A DNA stretch of 64,000 nt, taken from assembly GCF_001306455.1 (NCBI RefSeq), contig NZ_LGTQ01000006.1, positions 124,001-188,000 on the forward strand, given 5' to 3'. Below the pieces are notes generated by a model that ran no database searches, was not told the DNA's origin, and saw nothing but the letters and a program-made list of their open reading frames with translations. The DNA is from Jiulongibacter sediminis (GTDB taxonomy: Bacteria; Bacteroidota; Bacteroidia; Cytophagales; Spirosomataceae). A program made the translations under genes and the position numbers. Positions 9,680 to 20,496 of this stretch are shown in pieces (the first letter of the stretch is position 1; each line of letters opens with the position of its first letter).

Positions 9680-10114
9680 CTACGGCATCAATGTCCTAAA
9701 CCCATTCTCCTGTAAGCCAAACATGTATTGATAAGCTCCGACGGTGGTTTGAATATAAGGGTGTAAATCTTCTTTCTTTACCCCCAAATGGGCCATAGCT
9801 ACCTGGCAGAGGACTATTTTGACTCCATTGGTCTTACATTTTTCAACGAAAGGAATCAAACTTTCATCTTCAGCTAATTCCTTAACAATGGGTCCAACAA
9901 CCACAATCTGAAATTCAGAATCCGTAAACTTTGTCCTAAAGTTTTCTCCATTTCTAACACTGGACTCAAAAATTCGTCGGTTTGAGGCCAGAATGGCATA
10001 TTTCCCATCAGGTTTGATGGAATTCTCCACTTCTTCAATATTCAAGCTTTGTGCATTCGCTGAAAACTGAGAAATGGCCAGGCCGAAAAATACAAGCGTT
10101 ATAATTGTCTTCAT
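9680..10114 (-). CDS. DsrE family protein with signal peptide
   Basis: A 144-residue protein starting at the ATG at 10114 (a TTG lies two codons upstream). Residues 1-20 form a cleavable signal ending 'FSANAQS'. The body has the DsrE/DsrF-like Rossmann pattern: 'FQIVVVGPIVKELAED', 'FVEKCKTNGVKIVLCQVAMA' with a conserved cysteine, and a terminal 'VGAYQYMFGLQENGF'. Exported DsrE-like proteins of this type are common in Bacteroidota and have no firmly assigned role; a sulfur-transfer activity should not be assumed. It lies 30 bp downstream of the large cytochrome/propeller gene and could be the last gene of that operon. Confidence 0.75.
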   Translation of the reverse strand: MKTIITLVFFGLAISQFSANAQSLNIEEVENSIKPDGKYAILASNRRIFESSVRNGENFRTKFTDSEFQIVVVGPIVKELAEDESLIPFVEKCKTNGVKIVLCQVAMAHLGVKKEDLHPYIQTTVGAYQYMFGLQENGFRTLMP

Positions 10115-10144
10115 TTCCAAAAGCGTTTTTTCAAAGATAACTCG

Positions 10145-12748
10145 TTATTTAAACACCTCACTTTCCGGGTTTCCTCCAGAAACCAAATAGGCAAGCAAAT
10201 CCTTCAACTCCTCTTCATTCAGTGAATTGATAAGCCCGGGTAACATCACCGAAACCTTCGAATACTCCATACTTTCAATATCCGCTTTTTTGACTTCAAC
10301 GAGATAATCAGGCGTGTATGGGTTTTGGGAGACGGAATAGGCCTTATCAGTTTCATTGATAATCCTGGCGATGATGGTTTCGCCGTTTTTGAGTTGAAAT
10401 TCAGTAGCTGCGTACTGATCTGAAATCGTTTTACTTGGATCAATGATCGCCTCTAAAATCGCTTCTTTGCTAAAGCGGGTGCCAACTCTGGTGAGGTCCG
10501 GCCCGATGTTTCCCCCTTCGCCCTGCATGCCATGGCAGCGGTTGCAGGTGGTGGCGGTGTACATAGCTTTCCCCCGTTTGAAGTTTCTTTGACTAAGCTC
10601 TTCGGTGGCCACCTTCGAGGCTTCATCCATATTCCACGCCCTCCAAGGGCCCTCAGGGTAATCTTCGAGTTTCAGGTCGTTACCTGAAGAGGTCAGCATA
10701 CCACCGCCAGAGAGTTCATCATACTTTTCTCTTTGCTTTTCAGGTACATTATCAAGAGCCATTTTGCGAGCCCTATCGATGAACCCGATATAACTATTAC
10801 CACCACGGTAACTGAAAGCCTCTTTAAACCATTTGAAATACGTTTCACGCAATTGATTATTCCAACCGTTTTTCGCTTTTGATAATGCCACAGCAAAGTA
10901 TGTTTGCTGCATCGGCGGTACTTTCTCAAGCATTTTGGCAATATCAAGCCCGTATTGAGGATTCCGTAAAATCAAATCGGCCGAGCTTGTGGCTGTTTGG
11001 CCTCCGGCTTGCTGATCTTCTTTTATCGTTTTCATCAAAGTTATGGTCTTCTTAACCACCTGGTCATCATCGAGTTTGACCAAAATATTCACCAATTGAC
11101 GATTGATGGCTGCTGAAGAGTTTGGATAAATTGTGTTTAACTTTTTGGCAAGTGGACCTTTAGCTGCATCATCCGGCACCTCCATTCGATATAGGAAAAC
11201 TTCATACGCTCTCAAAAGGTCAAGAAGCTGATCTTCCGATAAGTTCGACAGCGGTATTTTTCCGAGCTCATTAAAAATAAATTCACTTTTTGATGAGCTT
11301 CTGGTTAAAGCCAAAAGAGCTGAAATCTTCTTATCCGCTGACGACTCTGAAGCAATTTTAGAGGCCCAGTCCTCTACATTTTGATGTTCCAGCAGAATTC
11401 GGGCAGCGTACCGAATGGCCCGGTCAGCATGATCAAGGTTTTGCCAGGCCAAGTCAATATTTCCTTCATTTTGATTCAAAAACTCACTTTCCAGCTTTTG
11501 ACGAAGCTTACTTTCCGCTGTGATTTGAGTTTTCTCAACTTCAGCCCCCATAGGACCTTCATAATAGACACGGTAAAGGTCAGACTGTAACCGGCGACCT
11601 CCGGTCATAAAATATAATGCACCATCAGGGCCAATAACACCATCCGTCAGAGGTAAAGGCACGCCGGATAGAAACTCCTCACGCTCCGCAGTATATGTCG
11701 CCCCTTCGGGTTTGAGATGGATGGCATGCATGATACCGAAGGACCAGTCAAAAGCCAGAAGCGATTGCTTATATTTTGCCGGGAATCTGGCGTTCTTGAG
11801 ATAAATCAAATTAGTAGGCGAACCCTGCCCGATATTCACAACGGCTGGTCTGCTATCTTCAAAATCAGGTGACCATTTGCCATTACCGGTACGCCAGCCG
11901 AATTCGCTGCCTGCTGTGGCATGACAAATACGGGTTGGTCTGTACCAAGGCAATCCAAAATCCCACTCCATATCGGCATCATACACAAAAAGGTCTCCAG
12001 CGTCATTAAAAGCAAGATCAAAGGCATTTCTATAACCGGCACTAACCAACTGCCAGTGATTAGTTTCCGGGTCCACTTTAGCCAGCCAGCCCCCCGGGGC
12101 ATGGCGGTTATTAGCATGACCACGAGGGTCAGGAATTGAAGGGAAAAGGTTATCATAATCCCAGGTTTTGGGCAGTAAGTGCTCGTCCATTTCCGGAAAA
12201 TCGGTGTGATTTCCTGCCAAAACGTACAGCGATTTTTTGTCAGGAGAAAGTACAATACTATGCGGACCGTGCTCTCCATCGCCCACCAGACTTTTCATGA
12301 GTTCTAATTTGTCAAACTCATCATCACCATCGGTGTCAGTCAATCTATACAGGCCGCTTTTTTGAGGAAGATCTTTTGTTGACCGGTTATTGACCATCAC
12401 AAAGAGACTGTTGAACGCATATAAAAGGCCATGAGCTGTACCAATACTTTGCCCAAGTGGCAGCTTTATTTCTTCAATTTCAGGATGCAAATTTGACGAA
12501 CCAATAGCAGGTATTTTCAACCTGAATAAACCACCGTATTGGTCTGAAGTGATCATACGACCTTTATCATCAAAACACATGGCCACCCATGAGCCCATAT
12601 CGTTCTCAGAAGGAGAAAAGATGTGTTCGGCTTTAAAACCAGGCTGTAGTTTAAGATTTAAGGTGTCGGCATTTTCTGGCCGGAACCCCCACAGGCTGAG
12701 GAAGCCGATGGCCAGAAGAATCAGACTCGTTTTCAAAAAGGTTTTCAT
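10145..12748 (-). CDS. PVC-type haem-binding, beta-propeller dehydrogenase-like exported protein
   Basis: An 867-residue protein with an N-terminal signal or anchor helix (residues 5-22). Residues 30-400 form a beta-propeller of the glucose/sorbosone dehydrogenase type ('CFDDKGRMITSDQYGGLFR', 'HGPHSIVLSPDKKSLYVLAG', 'DGVIGPDGALYFMTGG'). A helical repeat region follows. The C-terminal 130 residues hold a c-type cytochrome domain with 'CNRCHGMQGEGGNIGPDL' (CXXCH) and a distal 'KVSVMLPGLINSL' methionine ligand candidate. This architecture is known from Planctomycetes and Verrucomicrobia and occurs in Bacteroidota sugar-oxidation loci. It probably oxidises a carbohydrate in the periplasm and passes electrons to the haem. 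Its start overlaps the preceding dehydrogenase stop (ATGA). Confidence 0.85.
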   Translation of the reverse strand: MKTFLKTSLILLAIGFLSLWGFRPENADTLNLKLQPGFKAEHIFSPSENDMGSWVAMCFDDKGRMITSDQYGGLFRLKIPAIGSSNLHPEIEEIKLPLGQSIGTAHGLLYAFNSLFVMVNNRSTKDLPQKSGLYRLTDTDGDDEFDKLELMKSLVGDGEHGPHSIVLSPDKKSLYVLAGNHTDFPEMDEHLLPKTWDYDNLFPSIPDPRGHANNRHAPGGWLAKVDPETNHWQLVSAGYRNAFDLAFNDAGDLFVYDADMEWDFGLPWYRPTRICHATAGSEFGWRTGNGKWSPDFEDSRPAVVNIGQGSPTNLIYLKNARFPAKYKQSLLAFDWSFGIMHAIHLKPEGATYTAEREEFLSGVPLPLTDGVIGPDGALYFMTGGRRLQSDLYRVYYEGPMGAEVEKTQITAESKLRQKLESEFLNQNEGNIDLAWQNLDHADRAIRYAARILLEHQNVEDWASKIASESSADKKISALLALTRSSSKSEFIFNELGKIPLSNLSEDQLLDLLRAYEVFLYRMEVPDDAAKGPLAKKLNTIYPNSSAAINRQLVNILVKLDDDQVVKKTITLMKTIKEDQQAGGQTATSSADLILRNPQYGLDIAKMLEKVPPMQQTYFAVALSKAKNGWNNQLRETYFKWFKEAFSYRGGNSYIGFIDRARKMALDNVPEKQREKYDELSGGGMLTSSGNDLKLEDYPEGPWRAWNMDEASKVATEELSQRNFKRGKAMYTATTCNRCHGMQGEGGNIGPDLTRVGTRFSKEAILEAIIDPSKTISDQYAATEFQLKNGETIIARIINETDKAYSVSQNPYTPDYLVEVKKADIESMEYSKVSVMLPGLINSLNEEELKDLLAYLVSGGNPESEVFK

Positions 12749-13698
12749 GCGTTTGTCAATTGTAATTTATTGAAGATGCAGCCCTCCTGGGGCTCTTCAT
12801 TTCTTAATAAGGCCAGTACGTTTTGCACGGCATCCACACACATTTTATGGTAGGTTCTGTCTGTTAGGCTGGCCAGGTGTGCAGTAATTAAAACATTGGG
12901 CAAACCAATAAACGGGCTGCCTTCCAGTGGTGGTTCGGGGTTGGTTACATCGGCGGCAAAACCACCCAGTTTTTGATTGACCAAAGCCTCATAAACCGCT
13001 TTTTCATCAATAATGGGCCCACGTGCCGTATTGATAATTAAAGCTGTTTTCTTCATCAATGAGAGCGTCTTTTCATTAATCAGGTTTCGGGTTTCATCAA
13101 AAAGAGGAACGTGCAAGGTGAGAATATCGGCTTCTTTTAGAACATCCTCCAACGATGCGTAAGTGTATGGCAGATAATGCTTTACCGGGTCAGAGTATAT
13201 GATTTTCATACCCATCGCTTCAGCGATTTTGGCCACCTTTTGTCCTATAGTCCCCATACCCAAAACTCCTAGTGTTTTACCATAAATTTCGTCGCCAGAG
13301 AACTCGTTACGCCAGCTCCAGTTACCCTCTTTTACTTTTGAAACGGCCTGAAACATATTTCGCTGAAGCATCAGCATGAGGCTAATGGCATGCTCAGCCA
13401 CTGTTTGAGAGTTTACTCCCGGGTTATTCAAAACTTTTATACCCTTTTGAGTGGCATAATTGATATCCACGTTATCCAGACCTACACCGGCACGAGCCAC
13501 CATTTTAAGCTGTGGTAATTGGTCCATAAACTCAGGGGTAATCTGCCCTTTACCTCTGGTAATGACCGCCTCAACATTTTGCTTATCAAGGCTTTCAATA
13601 TTGAAATCATAAGCTGTCAGAAGTTCTACATCTCCTGCCTTTTGAAGAATGGCCATTGCCGGCTCAGCCAAGGTTTCCAGAAGTACGATTTTACTCAT
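12745..13698 (-). CDS. D-isomer-specific 2-hydroxyacid dehydrogenase
   Basis: A 317-residue cytoplasmic NAD-dependent enzyme. The nucleotide-binding motif is 'LGVLGMGTIGQKVA', the catalytic Arg is in 'INTARGPIIDE', an acidic residue follows in 'VTNPEPPLEGSP', and the catalytic His in 'LITAHLASLT'. It resembles D-3-phosphoglycerate dehydrogenase in the catalytic core but has no C-terminal ACT domain and is embedded in a catabolic cluster, so it more likely reduces or oxidises a sugar-derived 2-oxo/2-hydroxy acid than makes serine. Both ends overlap neighbours by four bases (ATGA), showing a tightly coupled operon. Confidence 0.85.
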   Translation of the reverse strand: MSKIVLLETLAEPAMAILQKAGDVELLTAYDFNIESLDKQNVEAVITRGKGQITPEFMDQLPQLKMVARAGVGLDNVDINYATQKGIKVLNNPGVNSQTVAEHAISLMLMLQRNMFQAVSKVKEGNWSWRNEFSGDEIYGKTLGVLGMGTIGQKVAKIAEAMGMKIIYSDPVKHYLPYTYASLEDVLKEADILTLHVPLFDETRNLINEKTLSLMKKTALIINTARGPIIDEKAVYEALVNQKLGGFAADVTNPEPPLEGSPFIGLPNVLITAHLASLTDRTYHKMCVDAVQNVLALLRNEEPQEGCIFNKLQLTNA

Positions 13699-14186
13699 TT
13701 AGATTCGTGGTAAAGCGTAGCATCTTTGGATTTATAACCTCTGAAATCATTTCGCCCAGAGACATAGATACCATCCTGATAAAGATCGTCCTCGAGGATT
13801 TTTGGATCAATTTTGGTTCCCGGAGGGCAGGATAGTTCCACAAGATTCCCCGAAGGATCACGAATGAAAAATTGCAAAGGGCCATCCGGCAGAACACGGG
13901 CTTTCCCCCATGGGCTGATGTCAATGATTCCCAATTCTTTCATTCTCCAATAGACCTCATTAATGTTTTCCATGTGGAAACAGACATGCCCTCTGAATGA
14001 AGGTTCCTCATCCCACTCGGTCAGATGCAACTGTTCGGTTTCGTTCACTCTGAAAAAGGCCGTGGGATAATCAAATAAAAAGGCCGGAATGACTTCCAGA
14101 CCTAGTTCATTTTCATAAAATGCACAGGCTTCTTCAAGATTTTTTACAATCAACGTCACATGATTTATTCCAATAGTCTTTGCCAT
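13695..14186 (-). CDS. VOC (glyoxalase/bleomycin resistance) family protein
   Basis: A 163-residue vicinal-oxygen-chelate protein with paired beta-alpha-beta-beta-beta modules. Likely metal ligands are seen: His in 'INHVTLIV', His in 'QLHLTEW', His in 'GHVCFHME', and Glu in 'DPSGNLVELSCPPG'. 'FYENELGLEVIP' is the usual first-module signature. These proteins catalyse isomerisation, dioxygenation or C-C cleavage depending on the subgroup. In this cluster it may act on an intermediate made by the enolase-superfamily enzyme encoded two bases upstream. The specific reaction is unknown. Confidence 0.82.
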   Translation of the reverse strand: MAKTIGINHVTLIVKNLEEACAFYENELGLEVIPAFLFDYPTAFFRVNETEQLHLTEWDEEPSFRGHVCFHMENINEVYWRMKELGIIDISPWGKARVLPDGPLQFFIRDPSGNLVELSCPPGTKIDPKILEDDLYQDGIYVSGRNDFRGYKSKDATLYHESK

Positions 14187-14188
14187 AG

Positions 14189-15358
14189 CTAGTTAATTTT
14201 TTGTTTATACTCATTTACAAAATCCCAGTTGGGACTTAGGCCCAGTCCGGGAGCTGTCGGTGCTAAAATGTCCCCATTTACTGCTTCAATTTTCTCATTC
14301 ACGAGCTCATACATCATCGGATTTCCGCCGGATGAGAACTCTATCACCACGGCCGAAGGAGACGCAAAGGCGACATTAACCCCTGCCATAAAAGAGAAGG
14401 CCGATCCCCAGCAATGCGGAGCGAGTTCCAGCTGATAAGCCTGAGTCAAAGCCGATACCCGATGAGCTTCAGTAATTCCGCCAATAATGGCAGAATCAGG
14501 CTGAACTACATCCAGAGCTTTAAGGTCAATCATATCACGCACATCAAATGCGGTATATTCACTTTCGCCTGCGGCAATCGGAATACTTGTTGACGCACGA
14601 ACCTCAGAAGTACCTTGTTTATTATCCGGGCTTACCGGTTCTTCAAACCAGTATAAGTCACAATCTTCCACACCGCGACAAAACTTCTTGGCCTCAGGCA
14701 CACTGAAGGTGCCGTGGGCGTCAGTCATAAGCAGAATATCATCTCCCAAGGCCTCACGGGCGGCCTGAACGCGTTTGATACTTTCCTTCACGGTTTTGTC
14801 CATAACCCCCACACGCATTTTAACGCCTTTGAAACCCTTTGACGTATAACTCAAAAGCTGCTCACCAATTTTATCTGCCGAAGCCCAGCCACCACTGGCG
14901 TAGGCTGGCATTTTATCCCGACAAGCTCCACCCAGAAGATCCATGACCGGAACGCCCAACTGTTTTCCTTTGATATCCCAAAGAGCGGTATCTACACCAC
15001 TCATGGCTGAAATGGTCAAGCCTCTACGACCTAAGATCGGGAACTTTCGACCACGATCAAGAGCATAATGATCACGTGTACCGTTATAAATAATTTCCCA
15101 AAGCCGGCTGATCTGGCCTGCATCCTGACCCACCAAAGCGGGTTTGATTTCATTTTCTATACAGCTGACGATAGACGCACAGGAACCAGAGGAACCTACA
15201 GCCGCTTTAGCCTCACCAAAACCCTGAAGGCCGGTGTCAGTGGTTACGACCACGAGGGTCATATCAAAATCTGTCAGCAGACCATAGTCTGAAGTATGTT
15301 GTTTTTCTTTTGGAATAGGGCAACGAAGCCAAAAGGCTTCAATATTGGTAATTTTCAT
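14189..15358 (-). CDS. Enolase superfamily sugar-acid dehydratase/racemase (mandelate racemase type)
   Basis: A 389-residue enzyme with the capping domain at the N-terminus and a (beta/alpha)7beta barrel. Metal ligands are visible as Asp in 'LLMTDAHGTF', Glu in 'YWFEEPVSPD' and Glu in 'IAAGESEYTAF'. A barrel Lys is in 'GVKMRVGV', and a His base in 'LAPHCWGSAF'. The His at barrel strand 7 region and the KxR segment point to the mandelate racemase subgroup, which includes many acid sugar dehydratases. It would abstract a proton alpha to a carboxylate, commonly to yield a 2-keto-3-deoxy sugar acid. The substrate is not deducible; the neighbours suggest a sugar acid derived from periplasmic oxidation. 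Confidence 0.85.
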   Translation of the reverse strand: MKITNIEAFWLRCPIPKEKQHTSDYGLLTDFDMTLVVVTTDTGLQGFGEAKAAVGSSGSCASIVSCIENEIKPALVGQDAGQISRLWEIIYNGTRDHYALDRGRKFPILGRRGLTISAMSGVDTALWDIKGKQLGVPVMDLLGGACRDKMPAYASGGWASADKIGEQLLSYTSKGFKGVKMRVGVMDKTVKESIKRVQAAREALGDDILLMTDAHGTFSVPEAKKFCRGVEDCDLYWFEEPVSPDNKQGTSEVRASTSIPIAAGESEYTAFDVRDMIDLKALDVVQPDSAIIGGITEAHRVSALTQAYQLELAPHCWGSAFSFMAGVNVAFASPSAVVIEFSSGGNPMMYELVNEKIEAVNGDILAPTAPGLGLSPNWDFVNEYKQKIN

Positions 15359-15382
15359 TCAATCTAATTTCAAATCGTTTTT

Positions 15383-15427
15383 CCGGACCCTGAGTCTGTC
15401 CACAGGACTCTGTGAGTCGAAGGGCCG
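15383..15427. repeat. REP-like imperfect palindrome downstream of the TIM-barrel gene
   Basis: The segment carries CCCTGAGTCTGTCC and, 14 bases later, GAGTCGAAGGGCCG, variants of the extragenic CCTGAGCCTGTCGAAGGG motif common in bacterial genomes. Its ends (CGGACCCT and AGGGCCG) and an inner GTCC/GGAC pair can form a hairpin. A second unit with CCCTTCGACAGGCTCAGG lies at 16352-16379. Confidence 0.5.
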
Positions 15428-15445
15428 TTGACAAACTTTTTTTTG

Positions 15446-16333
15446 TTATGATAAATAAGGTCTTAATGTATCAATCGACTTCTGAGTGAGCATTGAATAG
15501 AACTCCTCGGTGACTGCAGAGCTACCGTGGTCTTCCAGAAATTTCTTTTGCTCCTTGCTTAGGCCAACGGGGCTCTCATCAATAGAATTCGGGTATGGGT
15601 TTGCCGGTGTTCTATCTAATGGTGGACTGAACTCCACAGAAAGAACATCGTCATAACCAATCTCATGAAGCGTTTCTACAGTGGCTTTCCAGTCGATGGT
15701 ACCCATGCCGGGAGCCATACGGTTATTGTCAGCCACATGGAAACCTACCAACCGTCCCTTGGCTCGGCGAATGGCCGCCAGCGGGTCGGTTTCTTCAATA
15801 TTCATGTGAAAGGTATCGAGACAAACTCCGCACTTTTCTCCAGTTGCTTTGGCAAGAGCCAATGCCTGATCTCCGCGATTGATAAAATAGGTTTCAAAGC
15901 GGTTGATGGGCTCAATGCCAATCAGAATGCCGTTTCCGGTGGCATACTCATAAATCTGCTGCATGCCTTCCACGGCCCATTCCCATTCTTCTTCCGGGCG
16001 ACCATCTGGGATGATTTTACCAACAGTGCCGGGCACCACTGAGACCATTTTGCCATCTAGCTCGCTCACCATACGGACCACATCTTTGACATACTGTACG
16101 GAGTCTGCCCTTTGTTTTTTGTCTTTGGCTAGAAGGTTACGTTGCTCCAGCATCAGCGTTACGGAGCCCCAGCAGGTAAGACCGGCGTCATCCAGCAGTT
16201 TCTTAACTTTTTTAGTATCGTATAGTTCAGGACTACCCTGAATTTCCAGACTATGATAGCCCATTTTAGCGATGCGGTTCACGGTGTCTTCAATGGTTTC
16301 AGCCCGCATCCAATTGTGAATAGAAATCTTCAT
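15446..16333 (-). CDS. Sugar phosphate isomerase/epimerase-like TIM-barrel protein
   Basis: A 295-residue xylose-isomerase-like TIM barrel from the ATG at 16333 (an in-frame TTG lies two codons upstream). Metal-binding residues expected for the tagatose/psicose epimerase and hydroxypyruvate isomerase group are visible: Glu in 'LIGIEPINRFE', Asp and His in 'CLDTFHMNIEE', His in 'VGFHVADNNR' and Glu in 'VLSVEFSPP'. 'GMGTIDWKATVETL' is the usual loop before the last strand. It lacks a signal peptide, so it acts in the cytoplasm. Probably it epimerises or isomerises a ketose or keto-acid in the same pathway as its neighbours. REP-like repeats lie on both sides. Confidence 0.83.
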   Translation of the reverse strand: MKISIHNWMRAETIEDTVNRIAKMGYHSLEIQGSPELYDTKKVKKLLDDAGLTCWGSVTLMLEQRNLLAKDKKQRADSVQYVKDVVRMVSELDGKMVSVVPGTVGKIIPDGRPEEEWEWAVEGMQQIYEYATGNGILIGIEPINRFETYFINRGDQALALAKATGEKCGVCLDTFHMNIEETDPLAAIRRAKGRLVGFHVADNNRMAPGMGTIDWKATVETLHEIGYDDVLSVEFSPPLDRTPANPYPNSIDESPVGLSKEQKKFLEDHGSSAVTEEFYSMLTQKSIDTLRPYLS

Positions 16334-16351
16334 TTTCAATAGGTTGTTTCG

Positions 16352-16379
16352 CGGCCCTTCGACAGGCTCAGGTGCCGGG
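16352..16379. repeat. REP-like palindrome upstream of the TIM-barrel gene
   Basis: Contains CCCTTCGACAGGCTCAGG, a motif recurrent in extragenic spaces of many bacterial genomes, flanked by CGGC and GCCG so that the unit can fold into a hairpin. It occupies the gap between the ThuA gene end and the epimerase start and pairs with the related unit at 15383-15427. Confidence 0.5.
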
Positions 16380-16388
16380 TATCGTATG

Positions 16389-17342
16389 TTATGGTATTAA
16401 GATCGGTTTAATTCCAGTTTTGAATTCATTGCCAAAGCCGGAGTTATTTGGCTCGTAAGGTTCTGTAAGTTCAGCGTTAATCCCATTTTCCGGAATTTCA
16501 TCTTCATGACCCAGAGCCCAATAGATTCCATTCAGTGCCAGTTTACGCATGTTCTCAATTTTGAAATCAAAAGGGTGGCCCAGGGTCGTAAAAAATACCC
16601 GTGACGCTTTGCCTGAGGTCCCAGTGTAGGTCTTTGTCCATGCTACAGGATTTGTCAATGGATATTTGTCTAAATCACCATTCATTTCATGGTTTGATTT
16701 CAGCGACCTTCCCTCCAGAAATGGCTTGCTGTCTCCCGCGAGTTTCCAGTCCCCGCCATCTACGTGATAGAGCCAGGAGTAAGCCTCAAAGGGCTCTACG
16801 CCATTGAGAATAGGAGTATCAGCTTCCGGTAGAATACTGACTTCGGTCAGTTTGCCATGACCATCTTCAAAATGCCCGTGATGAGTGATCCACTGCTGCC
16901 CGAAAACCTTGGTTGGCCATTCATTGTTCATTTGCTTTTGAGTGGTGTCATTCTTGTATAAGAAAGTATGCGTTGCTGTTCGGAAACCTACCATTGGTCT
17001 TCCACTTTCTGCATAGTCAGTGATATATTTCAATTCTTCTGGCGGAAGCTCACGGAAACGGGCAAACATAACCATTAGATCAGCGTCTTTAAGAGCCTCA
17101 AGGCCTTCAATGTGGTCAAGACGGTTGGGGTCAATATAGCCGGCAGAATCCACCGAGAAGCAAAGAGAAATCTCGGCACCCATTTCTCTTTTCAGAATTT
17201 TAGCCAGCATGGGCATTGATTCCTCCGAGCGGTATTCTTCATCGCCGATGACGAATACCACTTTGGGCTTTTCTGTATCTTCTTTTTCGGGCTGGCAGCC
17301 AAAGATGAGAGATAATATAAGTAGTGTTAAAAAGTATTTCAT
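16389..17342 (-). CDS. ThuA domain lipoprotein
   Basis: A 317-residue protein starting at the ATG at 17342, which gives a clean lipoprotein signal with lipobox 'LIFGCQPEK' (Cys16). The ThuA-like core, a glutamine-amidotransferase-like fold, shows 'VVFVIGDEEYRSEESMPML', 'ADLMVMFARFRELPPEEL', 'GRPMVGFRTATHTF', 'HHGHFEDGHGKL' and 'RVFFTTLGHPFDF'. ThuA proteins are tied to trehalose and sucrose use through 3-keto sugars and are frequent in planctomycete-like carbohydrate loci, as here. The exact reaction is unproven. It is encoded 10 bases after the large haem/propeller gene. Confidence 0.83.
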   Translation of the reverse strand: MKYFLTLLILSLIFGCQPEKEDTEKPKVVFVIGDEEYRSEESMPMLAKILKREMGAEISLCFSVDSAGYIDPNRLDHIEGLEALKDADLMVMFARFRELPPEELKYITDYAESGRPMVGFRTATHTFLYKNDTTQKQMNNEWPTKVFGQQWITHHGHFEDGHGKLTEVSILPEADTPILNGVEPFEAYSWLYHVDGGDWKLAGDSKPFLEGRSLKSNHEMNGDLDKYPLTNPVAWTKTYTGTSGKASRVFFTTLGHPFDFKIENMRKLALNGIYWALGHEDEIPENGINAELTEPYEPNNSGFGNEFKTGIKPILIP

Positions 17343-17352
17343 TAGGTTTTGT

Positions 17353-20300
17353 TTAGAGCTCCTCTGCTGTGTAAAATCCATTTCGGTTTGCTGTAGCTTC
17401 TCTTACTTTTTTCACCGTTTCCGGTTTTACGGCCTTTGATAAATTGCCAAAGGAACTGCGAATGTAAGTCAGCACATCGGCAATTTCCTGATCATTTAGC
17501 ATTCCGCCAAAAGGTGTCATAGGTACCTGACCGGGGTATTTTTTACCCGCCACTTCAATAGGACCATACAGGCCATGAAGTACAATTTTAATGAGTCGTT
17601 CTTCATCGCCTTGCACCCAATCATTTCCGGCCAGCGGCGGGAAACCCGAACTTTCAAGTCCTTTTCCATCTGGCTGGTGGCAGGTTTCGCAGAAGCCGTC
17701 GCGACTGTATATTTCTTTTCCCGAAAGGAAAGATTTCTGCTCTTCAGAAGAGAGCATAGCTGGCATAGGGCCGTCTTCTTTTTCTTTCGGGATATAAGGC
17801 TCCATATGTGCCAAAATAGCATCATGCTGAGCAGTCATCCAGTCGTCAAGTGGCTTTTGGGCAGCTATGGCCAGAACTTCTTTAGCTGTTTCATTATCAA
17901 GCCAAGATGCGGCCACCATAGCCTCAAGACGCACCCTCCCGTGCTCATCTGCAGCGGCTTTTTTGAGCAGAGCTACCTGATCTTTGACCTGATGGCCAGT
18001 ATATCTCAAAACGCGAACGGCTGAAGCTCTGGCCTTGTAACTTTTGGCATTCAAAAGTGCATTGAGCAAATCCTGATCTACAGCGTTGAGTCCCCATGTC
18101 ACCCATAATGCTTCCAGTATATGGTGCTCGTACTGCGTGTCCGATTTGTCAAGATCAGTTACCCATTTTTTGATGGCACTCAGCACATCACTTTTATTAT
18201 GCTCACGCAATTCGCGGCGACTGCGATAGCGGGTTCTGTATTCGGGTAATTTCAAATTGTCCAGCAAAGTTTCAATTGATGCCCCATCTACTTTGGCCGG
18301 ATCCACAAGTGGGCGGGACGGGTAGGTAATTCGGTATATTCTTCCGTGAACATGATCTCTCAACGGATCGCGGGCATTGTGCTGCATGTGACCCACCAGT
18401 ACATTATGCCAATCTACCAGATATAAAGAGCCATCCGGGGCGAACTCCATGTCTACCGGCCTGAAGTTGGGGTCGTCGCTACGGACTAAATCTAAGCGAT
18501 GTTGAGTACCATAGCCTGTTCCGTCATCAACTACTTTATGCATCTTGGATCCCAAAAAACCGATTGTATTATTTATCAAAACATCCCCTTGCACTTCATC
18601 AGGAAAATGACGGCTGTGTACAAATTCAAGTCCGGAGGTAGGTCTTACCCGATGTTTATCTTCAATCAGATTCTTTGACCGGGGATTACTTAATCCGTAT
18701 TTAGACTTGATGCTTCCCGGCATCATCCACTCCACATCGGGGCTTGAAGTATAGGCGAAGAAGTTTTGACCCCAATGGTCAAAAGCAATTCCCCAAGGGT
18801 TCGGAATAGCAAGCTGAGCCGTTCTTTCCAGTTTTTTCAGTTGTGGAGAATAGCGATAAAAACCACCGTTGGTAGCTCTCACAGTGCCGTATGGAGTTTC
18901 CACGTTGGTATGAAGAAAAACACCTTCGCCCATGTAGATGGCTCCTGAAGGGTCGGCACAGAAAGCACTGATCACATGATGGGTGTCATGGTCATCAAAG
19001 CCGCTGAGCACTATTTCAACCTTATCGGCTTTGTCATCGCCATCGGTATCTACAAAATATTTAAGGTTGGTGCCTTGTGAAATGTAAACCCCATTCTTTC
19101 CGTCAGGAGTAGGAGCAAACTCAAAACCCGCCGGAATGTGTAGTTTATCCGCAAATACCGTCAGCTTGTCGGCTTTGTAGTCTCCGTCTGTATCTTCGAG
19201 AATAATCAGTTTGTCGTTTGGTTTCGGGTCACCAGGTTTATAATGTGGATACGTGGGCATTACAGCCACCCAAAGCCGGCCTTTATTATCAAAAGACATT
19301 TGAGATGGATTCGCCAGCTCAGGGAAATCTTCCTCAGAAGCAAATAGCTCAATTTTATACCCGGGAGCCATGTGAAATTGACTCATGGACTCTTCTCCGT
19401 AAAGGTACCTGGCTTTTCCCGGCAGGGTAAAATTGGTTTCAATGGTGGCCAGCGTTTGAGTATGAGCATCGGCTTTAGCCAGATCATACTCTCCACCCTT
19501 TACCGTTTTCCAGATGAGCGTATCTCTGATAGCCGTCATCTGCCTGATTTTCGTTAGCTCATTCGGGTAATTTTCATTGCCAAATGGCCGGTACCTTCTT
19601 CCGTAAACGTGAACCCCGTTCGGGATTTTGTAATCATTATGCCAGAAGTAATTCTTTTCCAGAACCGCTTCTTTGACCTTATCATATAAGTTTTGGTCTC
19701 CTTTTCTATTGGCAGAACCAAAGACCTTATCGGCCAGCAGAACAGAGAATTTTTGATAACCTTCATCATTAAGCTGAAGGCCATCTATGGTCAGTTTTTC
19801 AGAAGAAAACCAGTCTTTACTTGTACTAAAGGCATTGACATAGAGAACATCATTTTGCTTTGCAACCTCCTCAATAGCCTTGGCATATAATTGAAGGTTT
19901 TTATTTTCCTCAACACCATCCGGCAGATCGAATTCGTCAGAAAGATCCTGAAACGCAATTGGCGAAACCAGTGCCAGTTGCGGAGCAATACTATCATTAT
20001 AGACCATGGAATTGGTATGGTCTATAAAAGCCTGCAGCTCATTTTTGAAATTCTCAAGCCCAGCTTCACCGGCATACGATTCTGAGAAACCAAAGCAGGC
20101 GATAAGTATGTCTGTTTTATGTTTGCTCAGCCATTCATCAGGTGTTTCAAAATGTCCCTGGCTACCGGAGTTTTGAGCCAGATCAGTCTGGAATTTCTCA
20201 GCACCCGGAAACGCCCACGGCGAAACCCGTCCCGAATGTGGCCTGAAACCCGGAGTATCGCCACCATCACACATGTTACGGATGTACAGGTCTTTCTCTG

Positions 20301-20496
20301 GGTATCGCATGTGCATTTCGGTCTCGAAATATCCGAAATTGATCATACGTGAGCAGAGGTTATTGCCAATAAGGGTAATGTGACTGCCTTGCTCCAGCTG
20401 AAGTGCTTTTTCCGGTTGACAAGAAAACATCAAAAAAAGGTAAGCGAGGGTCAGAAAACTCAGTCCAGAGTTTTTTAGGCTATATTGTTTTAACAT
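17353..20496 (-). CDS. Large lipoprotein: SGNH-like, beta-propeller, HEAT-like and cytochrome c domains
   Basis: A 1047-residue protein with lipobox 'FLMFSCQPEK' (Cys26). Residues 35-260 resemble an SGNH hydrolase but the key residues look replaced: 'LIGNNLCSRM' where GDS is expected, 'ACFGFSESYAG' for GxND, and 'IDGLQLNDEGY' for the DxxH block. Residues 380-750 form a PVC-type beta-propeller ('MSFDNKGRLWVAVMPTYPH', 'VDTDGDDKADKVE', 'MEFAPDGSLYLVDWHN'). A HEAT-like repeat region (about 760-910) follows. The last 130 residues are a c-type cytochrome with 'CETCHQPDGKGLES' and 'VPMTPFGGMLNDQEI' supplying a Met ligand candidate. It is the first gene of the cluster and probably a periplasmic, membrane-anchored carbohydrate-oxidising electron carrier. 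Confidence 0.85.
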   Translation of the reverse strand: MLKQYSLKNSGLSFLTLAYLFLMFSCQPEKALQLEQGSHITLIGNNLCSRMINFGYFETEMHMRYPEKDLYIRNMCDGGDTPGFRPHSGRVSPWAFPGAEKFQTDLAQNSGSQGHFETPDEWLSKHKTDILIACFGFSESYAGEAGLENFKNELQAFIDHTNSMVYNDSIAPQLALVSPIAFQDLSDEFDLPDGVEENKNLQLYAKAIEEVAKQNDVLYVNAFSTSKDWFSSEKLTIDGLQLNDEGYQKFSVLLADKVFGSANRKGDQNLYDKVKEAVLEKNYFWHNDYKIPNGVHVYGRRYRPFGNENYPNELTKIRQMTAIRDTLIWKTVKGGEYDLAKADAHTQTLATIETNFTLPGKARYLYGEESMSQFHMAPGYKIELFASEEDFPELANPSQMSFDNKGRLWVAVMPTYPHYKPGDPKPNDKLIILEDTDGDYKADKLTVFADKLHIPAGFEFAPTPDGKNGVYISQGTNLKYFVDTDGDDKADKVEIVLSGFDDHDTHHVISAFCADPSGAIYMGEGVFLHTNVETPYGTVRATNGGFYRYSPQLKKLERTAQLAIPNPWGIAFDHWGQNFFAYTSSPDVEWMMPGSIKSKYGLSNPRSKNLIEDKHRVRPTSGLEFVHSRHFPDEVQGDVLINNTIGFLGSKMHKVVDDGTGYGTQHRLDLVRSDDPNFRPVDMEFAPDGSLYLVDWHNVLVGHMQHNARDPLRDHVHGRIYRITYPSRPLVDPAKVDGASIETLLDNLKLPEYRTRYRSRRELREHNKSDVLSAIKKWVTDLDKSDTQYEHHILEALWVTWGLNAVDQDLLNALLNAKSYKARASAVRVLRYTGHQVKDQVALLKKAAADEHGRVRLEAMVAASWLDNETAKEVLAIAAQKPLDDWMTAQHDAILAHMEPYIPKEKEDGPMPAMLSSEEQKSFLSGKEIYSRDGFCETCHQPDGKGLESSGFPPLAGNDWVQGDEERLIKIVLHGLYGPIEVAGKKYPGQVPMTPFGGMLNDQEIADVLTYIRSSFGNLSKAVKPETVKKVREATANRNGFYTAEEL

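Follow-up and report, generated by a model that had tools for sequence, protein, structure and literature searches.

The 64,000-nucleotide stretch of the Jiulongibacter sediminis genome analyzed here (contig NZ_LGTQ01000006.1, positions 124,001 to 188,000; hereafter the window) carries a run of eight minus-strand genes, P1 to P8, in which P3-P4-P5-P6 form a conserved core (Table 1). The core encodes an epimerase-like TIM barrel, a sugar-acid-dehydratase-like enzyme of the enolase superfamily, a vicinal oxygen chelate (VOC) protein and a D-2-hydroxyacid dehydrogenase. Sequence comparison suggests that it is a transferable module common to many Bacteroidota and a few Planctomycetota, and partial in rhizobia. 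The reading we favor, tentatively and at slightly short of an even chance, is that the core acts as a catabolic module for a sugar acid or keto-sugar acid by epimerization, reduction and dehydration. P1, P2 and P7 are treated as optional neighbors, and P8 encodes a DsrE-family protein.

The order of the four core genes is strictly kept. In the locus comparison, which covered 53 loci after one duplicate was dropped, 45 loci belong to Bacteroidota (in the GTDB sense, window included), and 42 of these distinct loci have P3-P4-P5-P6 on one strand in that order. Lewinella locus L041 has the permuted order P4-P5-P6-P3, and two more loci (L023 and L044) reach a contig edge during or after P5. Of the 42, Emticicia CRIBPO (L022) has P3 and P4 set 4 kb apart, with genes for a DUF1501-like and a PSCyt1/PSD1 protein in between. 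For the 18 remote P4 homologues (27-35% identity), some of which lie on short contigs, P5 and P6 are unmatched at E 1e-8 and P3 has a single match, weak and partial. Full-length P5 orthologues (63-100% identity, E 1.2e-73 or better) occur in the same nine of 119 relatives as the P4 orthologues; the other P5 matches at E 1e-12, at 30-39% identity, lie in three further genomes or are second copies in three core genomes. Median pairwise identity is 0.76 for P4, 0.69 for P3 and 0.50 for P6, the least conserved core gene. Moreover, the P4 of L079, a genome that belongs to the same order as the host, groups with a Maribacter sequence inside Maribacter (support 95/88), so horizontal transfer of the core is probable.

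These loci stem from P4 searches of the 119 relatives (E 1e-60; 10 matches, nine at 79-100% identity, host included, and one at 37%), of 395 genomes sampled from the phylum (E 1e-90; 13 matches, host included) and of a named genome collection (47 loci; L020-L048 at 67-86%, L049-L066 at 27-35%, the latter used as the contrast set alone). The dropped loci are L086, which shares its contig with L042; L012, L013, L016 and L017, which share genomes with L047, L020, L027 and L029; L001-L010, shorter versions of other loci; and L019, the 37% P4 match. The rhizobial and Diaphorobacter loci were hand-picked out of 438 and 870 plasmid records with matches, and L110, near L112, was used in the rhizobial protein comparison alone. 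Beside the core of L089, in a high-GC genome, open reading frames (ORFs) with repeated peptide words look by eye like a translated CRISPR array (L089:12228-17521).

Families were assigned with Pfam and NCBIfam profiles against curated cut-offs. P3, which probably starts at its third codon (MKISIHNW), has D-tagatose 3-epimerase (E 1.1e-27) and TM0416 as its nearest solved structures. Residues E143, D175, H201 and E236 are invariant (51/51) and align with tagatose 3-epimerase 4xsl; we take them to be the metal-ligand set of ketose 3-epimerase-like TIM barrels. The likeness to the ketose 3-epimerase/IolO family extends to the NRFE and NR-APG stretches, whereas a conserved C-terminal DHGS (270-273, 51/51) and the profile scores set P3 apart: 5-keto-L-gluconate epimerase reaches 147.3 bits and D-psicose 3-epimerase 136.9 bits, both under the cut-off of 300. 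The same two models are the best for the rhizobial and planctomycete P3 proteins.

P4 exceeds both Pfam cut-offs of its superfamily (MR_MLE_N 66.1 bits, cut-off 22; MR_MLE_C 207 bits, cut-off 29.4), and K180, R182, D213, H215, E239, E265, D288, H315 and E340 are invariant (53/53). Presumably D213, E239 and E265 are metal ligands, K180 and R182 the strand-2 bases, and D288 and H315 the His-Asp dyad. Enzymes of this mandelate racemase subgroup act on carboxylates. The best NCBIfam scores are those of arabinonate dehydratase (219.6 bits, cut-off 650) and galactonate dehydratase (218.6 bits, cut-off 311), both under cut-off. P4 shares with these two dehydratases its domain arrangement and the residues for metal binding and acid-base catalysis, yet it forms a subfamily of its own, which is highly conserved and carries K180-x-R182 and D213-x-H215.

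P5 scores 46.8 bits on the Pfam Glyoxalase profile (cut-off 20.6), and its H9, H54 and H67 (48/48) and E117 (47/47) are invariant. Its predicted structure, with a mean predicted local distance difference test score (pLDDT) of 83.3, has a VOC fold over residues 8-125 and a tail modeled with low confidence. Foldseek and VIA-align find the fold to resemble FosX, glyoxalase I and ChaP (for 3ghj, VIA-align Z 12.3, root-mean-square deviation 2.5, 109 aligned); these structure searches return generic VOC neighbors and pick out no single reaction. P5 matches ten NCBIfam models and meets the cut-off of none, the best scoring 26.2 of 114.95 bits. The C-terminal tail (residues 126-163, window 13698-13811), which lies beyond the VOC fold, is conserved and has invariant positions, R145, D147, R149 and G150 among them. 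In P6, G147, G149, G152, R226 and H274 are invariant (51/51) and the column expected to hold the catalytic Glu is E in 36/51; we assume that the GxGxxG motif and the catalytic Arg, Glu and His have their D-2-hydroxyacid dehydrogenase roles. No signal peptide was seen by eye in P3 to P6.

Core genes also occur outside Bacteroidota. P4 is found at 48-64% identity in 4 of 199 genomes from the phylum of a Rhodopirellula record; three of these planctomycete loci have P3-P4-P5-P6 in order. Around the core of planctomycete L119 lie a major facilitator superfamily (MFS) gene, whose product is 33% identical over 355 residues to the MFS protein of the Sphingobacterium L038 cluster, a P1 homologue (39%) and a ThuA gene in opposite orientation. 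The nearest model for the L038 MFS protein is a D-galactonate transporter, very weakly matched (35 of 395 bits). On Rhizobiaceae megaplasmids, P3 (53-54%), P4 (50-51%) and P6 (31-33%) lie beside a sugar ATP-binding cassette (ABC) importer, a Tm-1-like protein, a PEP-hydrolase-family protein and a cupin. A FadR/GntR regulator gene sits between P4 and P6 in L109, L110 and L112, and L113 has a gap of equal size; the nearest models for this regulator are NanR, LldR, UxuR, GlcC, PdhR and ExuR, every one under cut-off. On a Diaphorobacter plasmid, P6-P4 have as neighbors a gene for a FadR-type regulator and genes for a tripartite tricarboxylate transporter. In a sample of Verrucomicrobiota, the phylum to which a Limisphaerales record belongs, P4 was found in 0 of 240 genomes at E 1e-70, a search without a positive-control genome and hence uninformative.

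Besides the rhizobial loci, Tm-1-like (48-51%) and PEP-hydrolase (59-60%) genes adjoin the core in L080 (family f43) and in no other searched locus. Tm-1-like (UPF0261), PEP-hydrolase-family and cupin genes lie near core genes both there (L080:15007-17647) and in a rhizobial locus (L112:6188-8286), a link across phyla. UPF0261 was absent from the host in a search with one positive control genome.

Several of these observations bear on the substrate class. The carboxylate chemistry of P4, the models nearest the rhizobial regulator, the L038 MFS protein and a SMP-30/gluconolactonase-type gene that follows the core in L037, and in no other locus searched, suggest a sugar acid. Cytoplasmic conversion of a sugar acid, as the earlier note on this DNA had suggested, is the best reading of P3, P4 and P6. 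In the scheme that we propose, the sugar acid would enter, or be used, as a keto acid, possibly through an MFS carrier. Acting on a 2-keto (ulosonic) sugar acid in the manner of metal-dependent C3-epimerases, P3 would invert the carbon adjoining the carbonyl, after which P6 would use NAD(P)H to reduce the keto group at C2, so that a 2-hydroxy (aldonic) acid results. P4 would take the C2 proton and eliminate the hydroxyl at C3, which would yield a 2-keto-3-deoxy acid. P5, as a metal-dependent VOC enzyme, may catalyze a further proton transfer or a scission, and general kinase or aldolase enzymes of the 2-keto-3-deoxygluconate type, coded elsewhere, would act last. We infer the substrate, the order of the steps, the P5 reaction, the roles of P1, P2 and P7 and the mode of transport; the exact order as given is doubtful.

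The closest known arrangement is the Pseudomonas kgu operon, kguE-kguK-kguT-kguD, which includes a putative epimerase of unknown function and a 2-ketoacid reductase (PMC11678583). As described there, epimerase and reductase share one operon that acts after extracytoplasmic sugar oxidation, and in this respect the core resembles it. The kgu MFS carrier has counterparts in two related clusters (L038 and L119), not in the window, where genes for both a carrier and a kinase are absent from the cluster. Where the kgu operon has its kinase, the core instead has the dehydratase-like P4 and the VOC protein P5, and, unlike in the kgu system, its optional oxidation proteins are PVC-type cytochrome c proteins (PVC, Planctomycetes-Verrucomicrobia-Chlamydiae).

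The earlier note did not recognize the pathway as a whole, and no publication that names it was found, nor any published description of the P3-P4-P5-P6 gene set recognized, in the open-license literature searched. A bolder version of the sugar-acid reading, which we hold to be rather unlikely, is that the core is an undescribed catabolic pathway common to Bacteroidota, Planctomycetota and, minus the VOC gene, rhizobia. Its dedicated VOC metalloenzyme, with the conserved C-terminal tail, would perform a step new to sugar-acid breakdown, for example one that cleaves or rearranges the 2-keto-3-deoxy acid and so replaces an ordinary aldolase; its substrate may be unusual and possibly branched, and some lineages would have wired the core to a PVC-type cytochrome c system for extracytoplasmic oxidation. 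The sole hint of such a substrate is an apiosidase-like neighbor. In three of 11 flavobacterial loci (L036, L040 and L045) its gene comes next after P6, on the strand that P6 is on, and matches PF13204 at 201-205 bits (cut-off 26.5); no homologue was found in the other core loci, and the remote locus L057 has a 23-25% match. Because PF13204 is a broad Pfam family, apiose is a lead only. The notion that flavobacterial loci lack any hydrolase was rejected on account of these three genes.

A number of findings weigh against the sugar-acid reading or leave it loose. Because no core protein reaches any equivalog cut-off, the substrate is left unfixed, and the core itself has no kinase or aldolase gene. 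Four rhizobial loci lack a P5 match at E 1e-5, and both Diaphorobacter and one planctomycete have P4-P6 with neither P3 nor P5, which means that these two may be dispensable for the chemistry. An MFS gene of the L038 type is found among the 45 Bacteroidota loci in L038 only (homology to a single example), the rhizobial permease, the rhizobial solute-binding protein and SusD are found in 0 of the 45 (again by single-example homology), and a neutral sugar or a glycoside would also suit the rhizobial importer. In the host, the closest MFS homologue is encoded away from the cluster, next to a TIM barrel and a pair of Gfo/Idh genes. Gene-pair distance correlations in Bacteroidota (P3-P4 0.74, P4-P6 0.73, P4-P1 0.79, P3-P7 0.91) fail to split core from accessory genes. 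P1 is common in genomes without the core: it occurs in 56 of the 119 relatives at E 1e-80; 55 of these reach at least 55% identity, and 48 of the 55 lack the core. At that identity threshold, and with G066 included although P1 is there in pieces, P1 is found in 7 of 9 core-bearing relatives and 48 of 110 without the core, a link that is not significant (Fisher p = 0.079); P1 as a marker of the core was rejected on this count.

Three other explanations were weighed. Periplasmic 3-ketolactose pathways exist in Bacteroidetes (PMC9007349). P1 and ThuA might take part in oxidizing glycosides at C3 and cleaving them, and the core would handle the released 3-keto sugar or its acid instead of a 2-ketoaldonate, P3 isomerizing or epimerizing the 3-keto sugar. 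ThuA is found in at least 13 of the 45 Bacteroidota loci by match to P2, with other ThuA-family genes in L022, L015 and L047. Imperialibacter locus L021 has a protein with a 3-keto-disaccharide hydrolase domain near P1 on the opposite strand, but it is the only one of the 45 loci with such a match (single-example homology). P3 does match the 3-keto-D-glucoside 4-epimerase 6wn6 (E 5.8e-15), yet far more weakly than it matches tagatose epimerase. P4 and P6 normally need a carboxylate, the window cluster has no Gfo/Idh gene, and P1 and P2 occur in none of the 11 flavobacterial loci and in no rhizobial locus; a 3-keto-glycoside route is, on balance, unlikely.

A role in salvage or detoxification is less probable still. 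The core would then clear a damaged or dead-end sugar-acid metabolite, with P5 acting like glyoxalase or FosX on a reactive dicarbonyl that P6 reduces. The fold of P5, like those of glyoxalase I and FosX, agrees with this, as do the patchy spread of the core (13/395 in the phylum sample) and the 11 flavobacterial loci, none of which has P1, P2 or P7 and eight of which show by eye no hydrolase or sugar transporter gene among their listed neighbors. Neighboring importers, P1, ThuA and the apiosidase-like hydrolase of three flavobacteria look catabolic, however, and the high identity of P4 and P3 fits one defined substrate. Least probable is an aromatic or other non-sugar acid pathway in which P4 is a muconate-type cycloisomerase and P5 an extradiol-type dioxygenase. 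P4 does score 115.8 bits on the muconate cycloisomerase model (mucon_cyclo), and P5 has an invariant H-H-E set and a weak biphenyl-diol dioxygenase match (23 bits). P4 nevertheless scores some 100 bits higher on sugar-acid dehydratase models, P3 groups with keto-sugar epimerases, and no aromatic degradation genes were noticed by eye in the neighbor lists.

Table 1. Features of the eight-gene cluster in the window, with the hydrolase genes of related loci
Feature	Position	Strand	Assignment	N-terminus (by eye)	Status or place
P1	17353..20496	-	GDSL-like + DUF7133 + HEAT + cytochrome c	lipobox-like	optional
P2	16389..17381	-	ThuA-family, 38.7 bits	lipobox-like	optional
P3	15446..16339	-	ketose/keto-acid epimerase-like TIM barrel, AP_endonuc_2 151.8 bits		core
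P4	14189..15358	-	mandelate-racemase-subgroup, sugar-acid-dehydratase-like, MR_MLE_C 207 bits		core
P5	13695..14186	-	VOC protein, Glyoxalase 46.8 bits		core
P6	12745..13698	-	D-2-hydroxyacid dehydrogenase, 2-Hacid_dh_C 203.3 bits		core
P7	10145..12748	-	PVC-type, C-terminal cytochrome c	signal-like	optional
P8	9680..10120	-	DsrE-family, DrsE_2 32.1 bits	signal-like	last gene
Short repeated element	16354..16372	-			P2-P3 gap
Apiosidase-like hydrolase	L036:6899-8554		PF13204 + DUF5060		
Apiosidase-like hydrolase	L040:12714-14384		PF13204 + DUF5060		
Apiosidase-like hydrolase	L045:13010-14644		PF13204 + DUF5060		

The eight co-directional genes described in the earlier note are real: all are found in the ORF list of the window, on the minus strand from 20496 down to 9680, in the families that their profiles indicate. 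Intergenic distances from P1 to P8, in transcription order, are -29, 49, 87, 2, -4, -4 and 24 nt. The 17-base form of the repeated element in the P2-P3 gap has 7 genome sites with at most one mismatch, and the reversed-pattern control has 0; by eye, a stretch of the P3-P4 gap at about 15375-15425 is partly related to this element. RNA folding in the two longer gaps is no better than in shuffles (z -0.35 and -1.42). A scan of both strands gave 19 terminator-like sites vs 12.3 in shuffles; six sites lie on the minus strand within the cluster, every one inside an ORF. No tRNA genes were found in the window.

As a single set of eight, the cluster holds up in part. P3-P4-P5-P6 are conserved together; among the Bacteroidota loci, P1 accompanies the core in at least 15 of 45, P2 in at least 13 and P7 in at least 11, counts that are lower bounds since several loci are short. 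DsrE is found in the window alone among the loci searched at E 1e-3. A single eight-gene unit is accordingly rejected for DsrE and weakened for P1, P2 and P7. Dispersal of homologues among unrelated partners, named beforehand as evidence against the cluster, is seen for DsrE and not for the four core genes.

The two putatively secreted proteins were correctly recognized as PVC-type cytochrome c proteins. P1 scores 230.4 bits on DUF7133 and 204.4 on TIGR02604 (cut-off 122.2), with HEAT_2 and cytochrome c domains; its GDSL match is sub-threshold (23.2 vs 32.9), and its predicted structure is of low confidence (pLDDT 49.1, predicted template modeling score 0.36). P7 has a cytochrome c domain and passes the TIGR02603 cut-off (105.5 bits, cut-off 68.15), not that of TIGR02604 (79.4 bits). 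P2 passes the ThuA cut-off of 33.4 bits. In domain content, P1 and P7 are thus like the PVC-type cytochrome c proteins (TIGR02603/TIGR02604) that go with ThuA, and in this cluster such proteins are optional neighbors of a cytoplasmic core. The host genome has eight ORFs over the TIGR02604 cut-off, P1 among them. A search for pqqC gave no match in the host and likewise none in control genomes, and is hence uninformative on PQQ.

The pairing of P1 with ThuA also extends beyond the core. Eighteen P1 loci were sampled outside the core, including three from genomes that have it. ThuA adjoins P1 in 14 of them, a TonB-receptor-like cluster is present in 10 and a SusD-like cluster in 8; for each of the two clusters one representative was confirmed. 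TonB-receptor-like and SusD-like genes lie directly upstream of ThuA-P1 in L093, L094, L097 and L098. Because the pair recurs away from the core (L093-L108), P1-ThuA is a module of its own. In eight core-bearing Bacteroidota genomes searched whole, P1 is present at 61-63% identity in seven and 43% in one; in two of the eight (L035 and L038) the match is the P1 beside the core.

P1, which about a third of the Bacteroidota loci have, in most cases together with ThuA, and P7, which a quarter have, may act in the extracytoplasmic space, where they would plausibly oxidize or open the parent sugar or glycoside and hand electrons to cytochrome c. Coupling of such periplasmic oxidation to the core, part of the earlier proposal, stays putative in view of the Fisher result given above. 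Co-location in about a third of loci favors it, with P1 placed variously upstream or downstream of the core or in opposite orientation. The cluster in the window has no transporter or glycoside hydrolase, as originally remarked; some related clusters carry an MFS gene, an ABC importer or the apiosidase-like hydrolase.

Elsewhere in the host, an MFS gene (44% to the L038 MFS) is oriented divergently to a pair of Gfo/Idh genes and a gene for a xylose-isomerase-like TIM barrel (L124:8760-13842), probably another sugar-oxidation locus. About 20-28 kb from the cluster lie genes that by eye are TonB-receptor-like and SusD-like (L125:1899-9219), followed by the gene of another enolase-superfamily protein, whose long N-terminus suggests export by the twin-arginine (Tat) route.

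The core offers a clean target for enzyme discovery, with its strict order, intact active sites, presence in distant phyla, and four soluble enzymes that probably share one substrate. Genomes are available for comparison in which the core stands almost by itself or is joined by a hydrolase, an importer or oxidation proteins. Solving the core would help explain the PVC-type cytochrome c proteins (DUF7133) and the DUF1501/PSD1 companions that recur beside it, and would also bear on the compound that the linked ABC system takes up in rhizobia.

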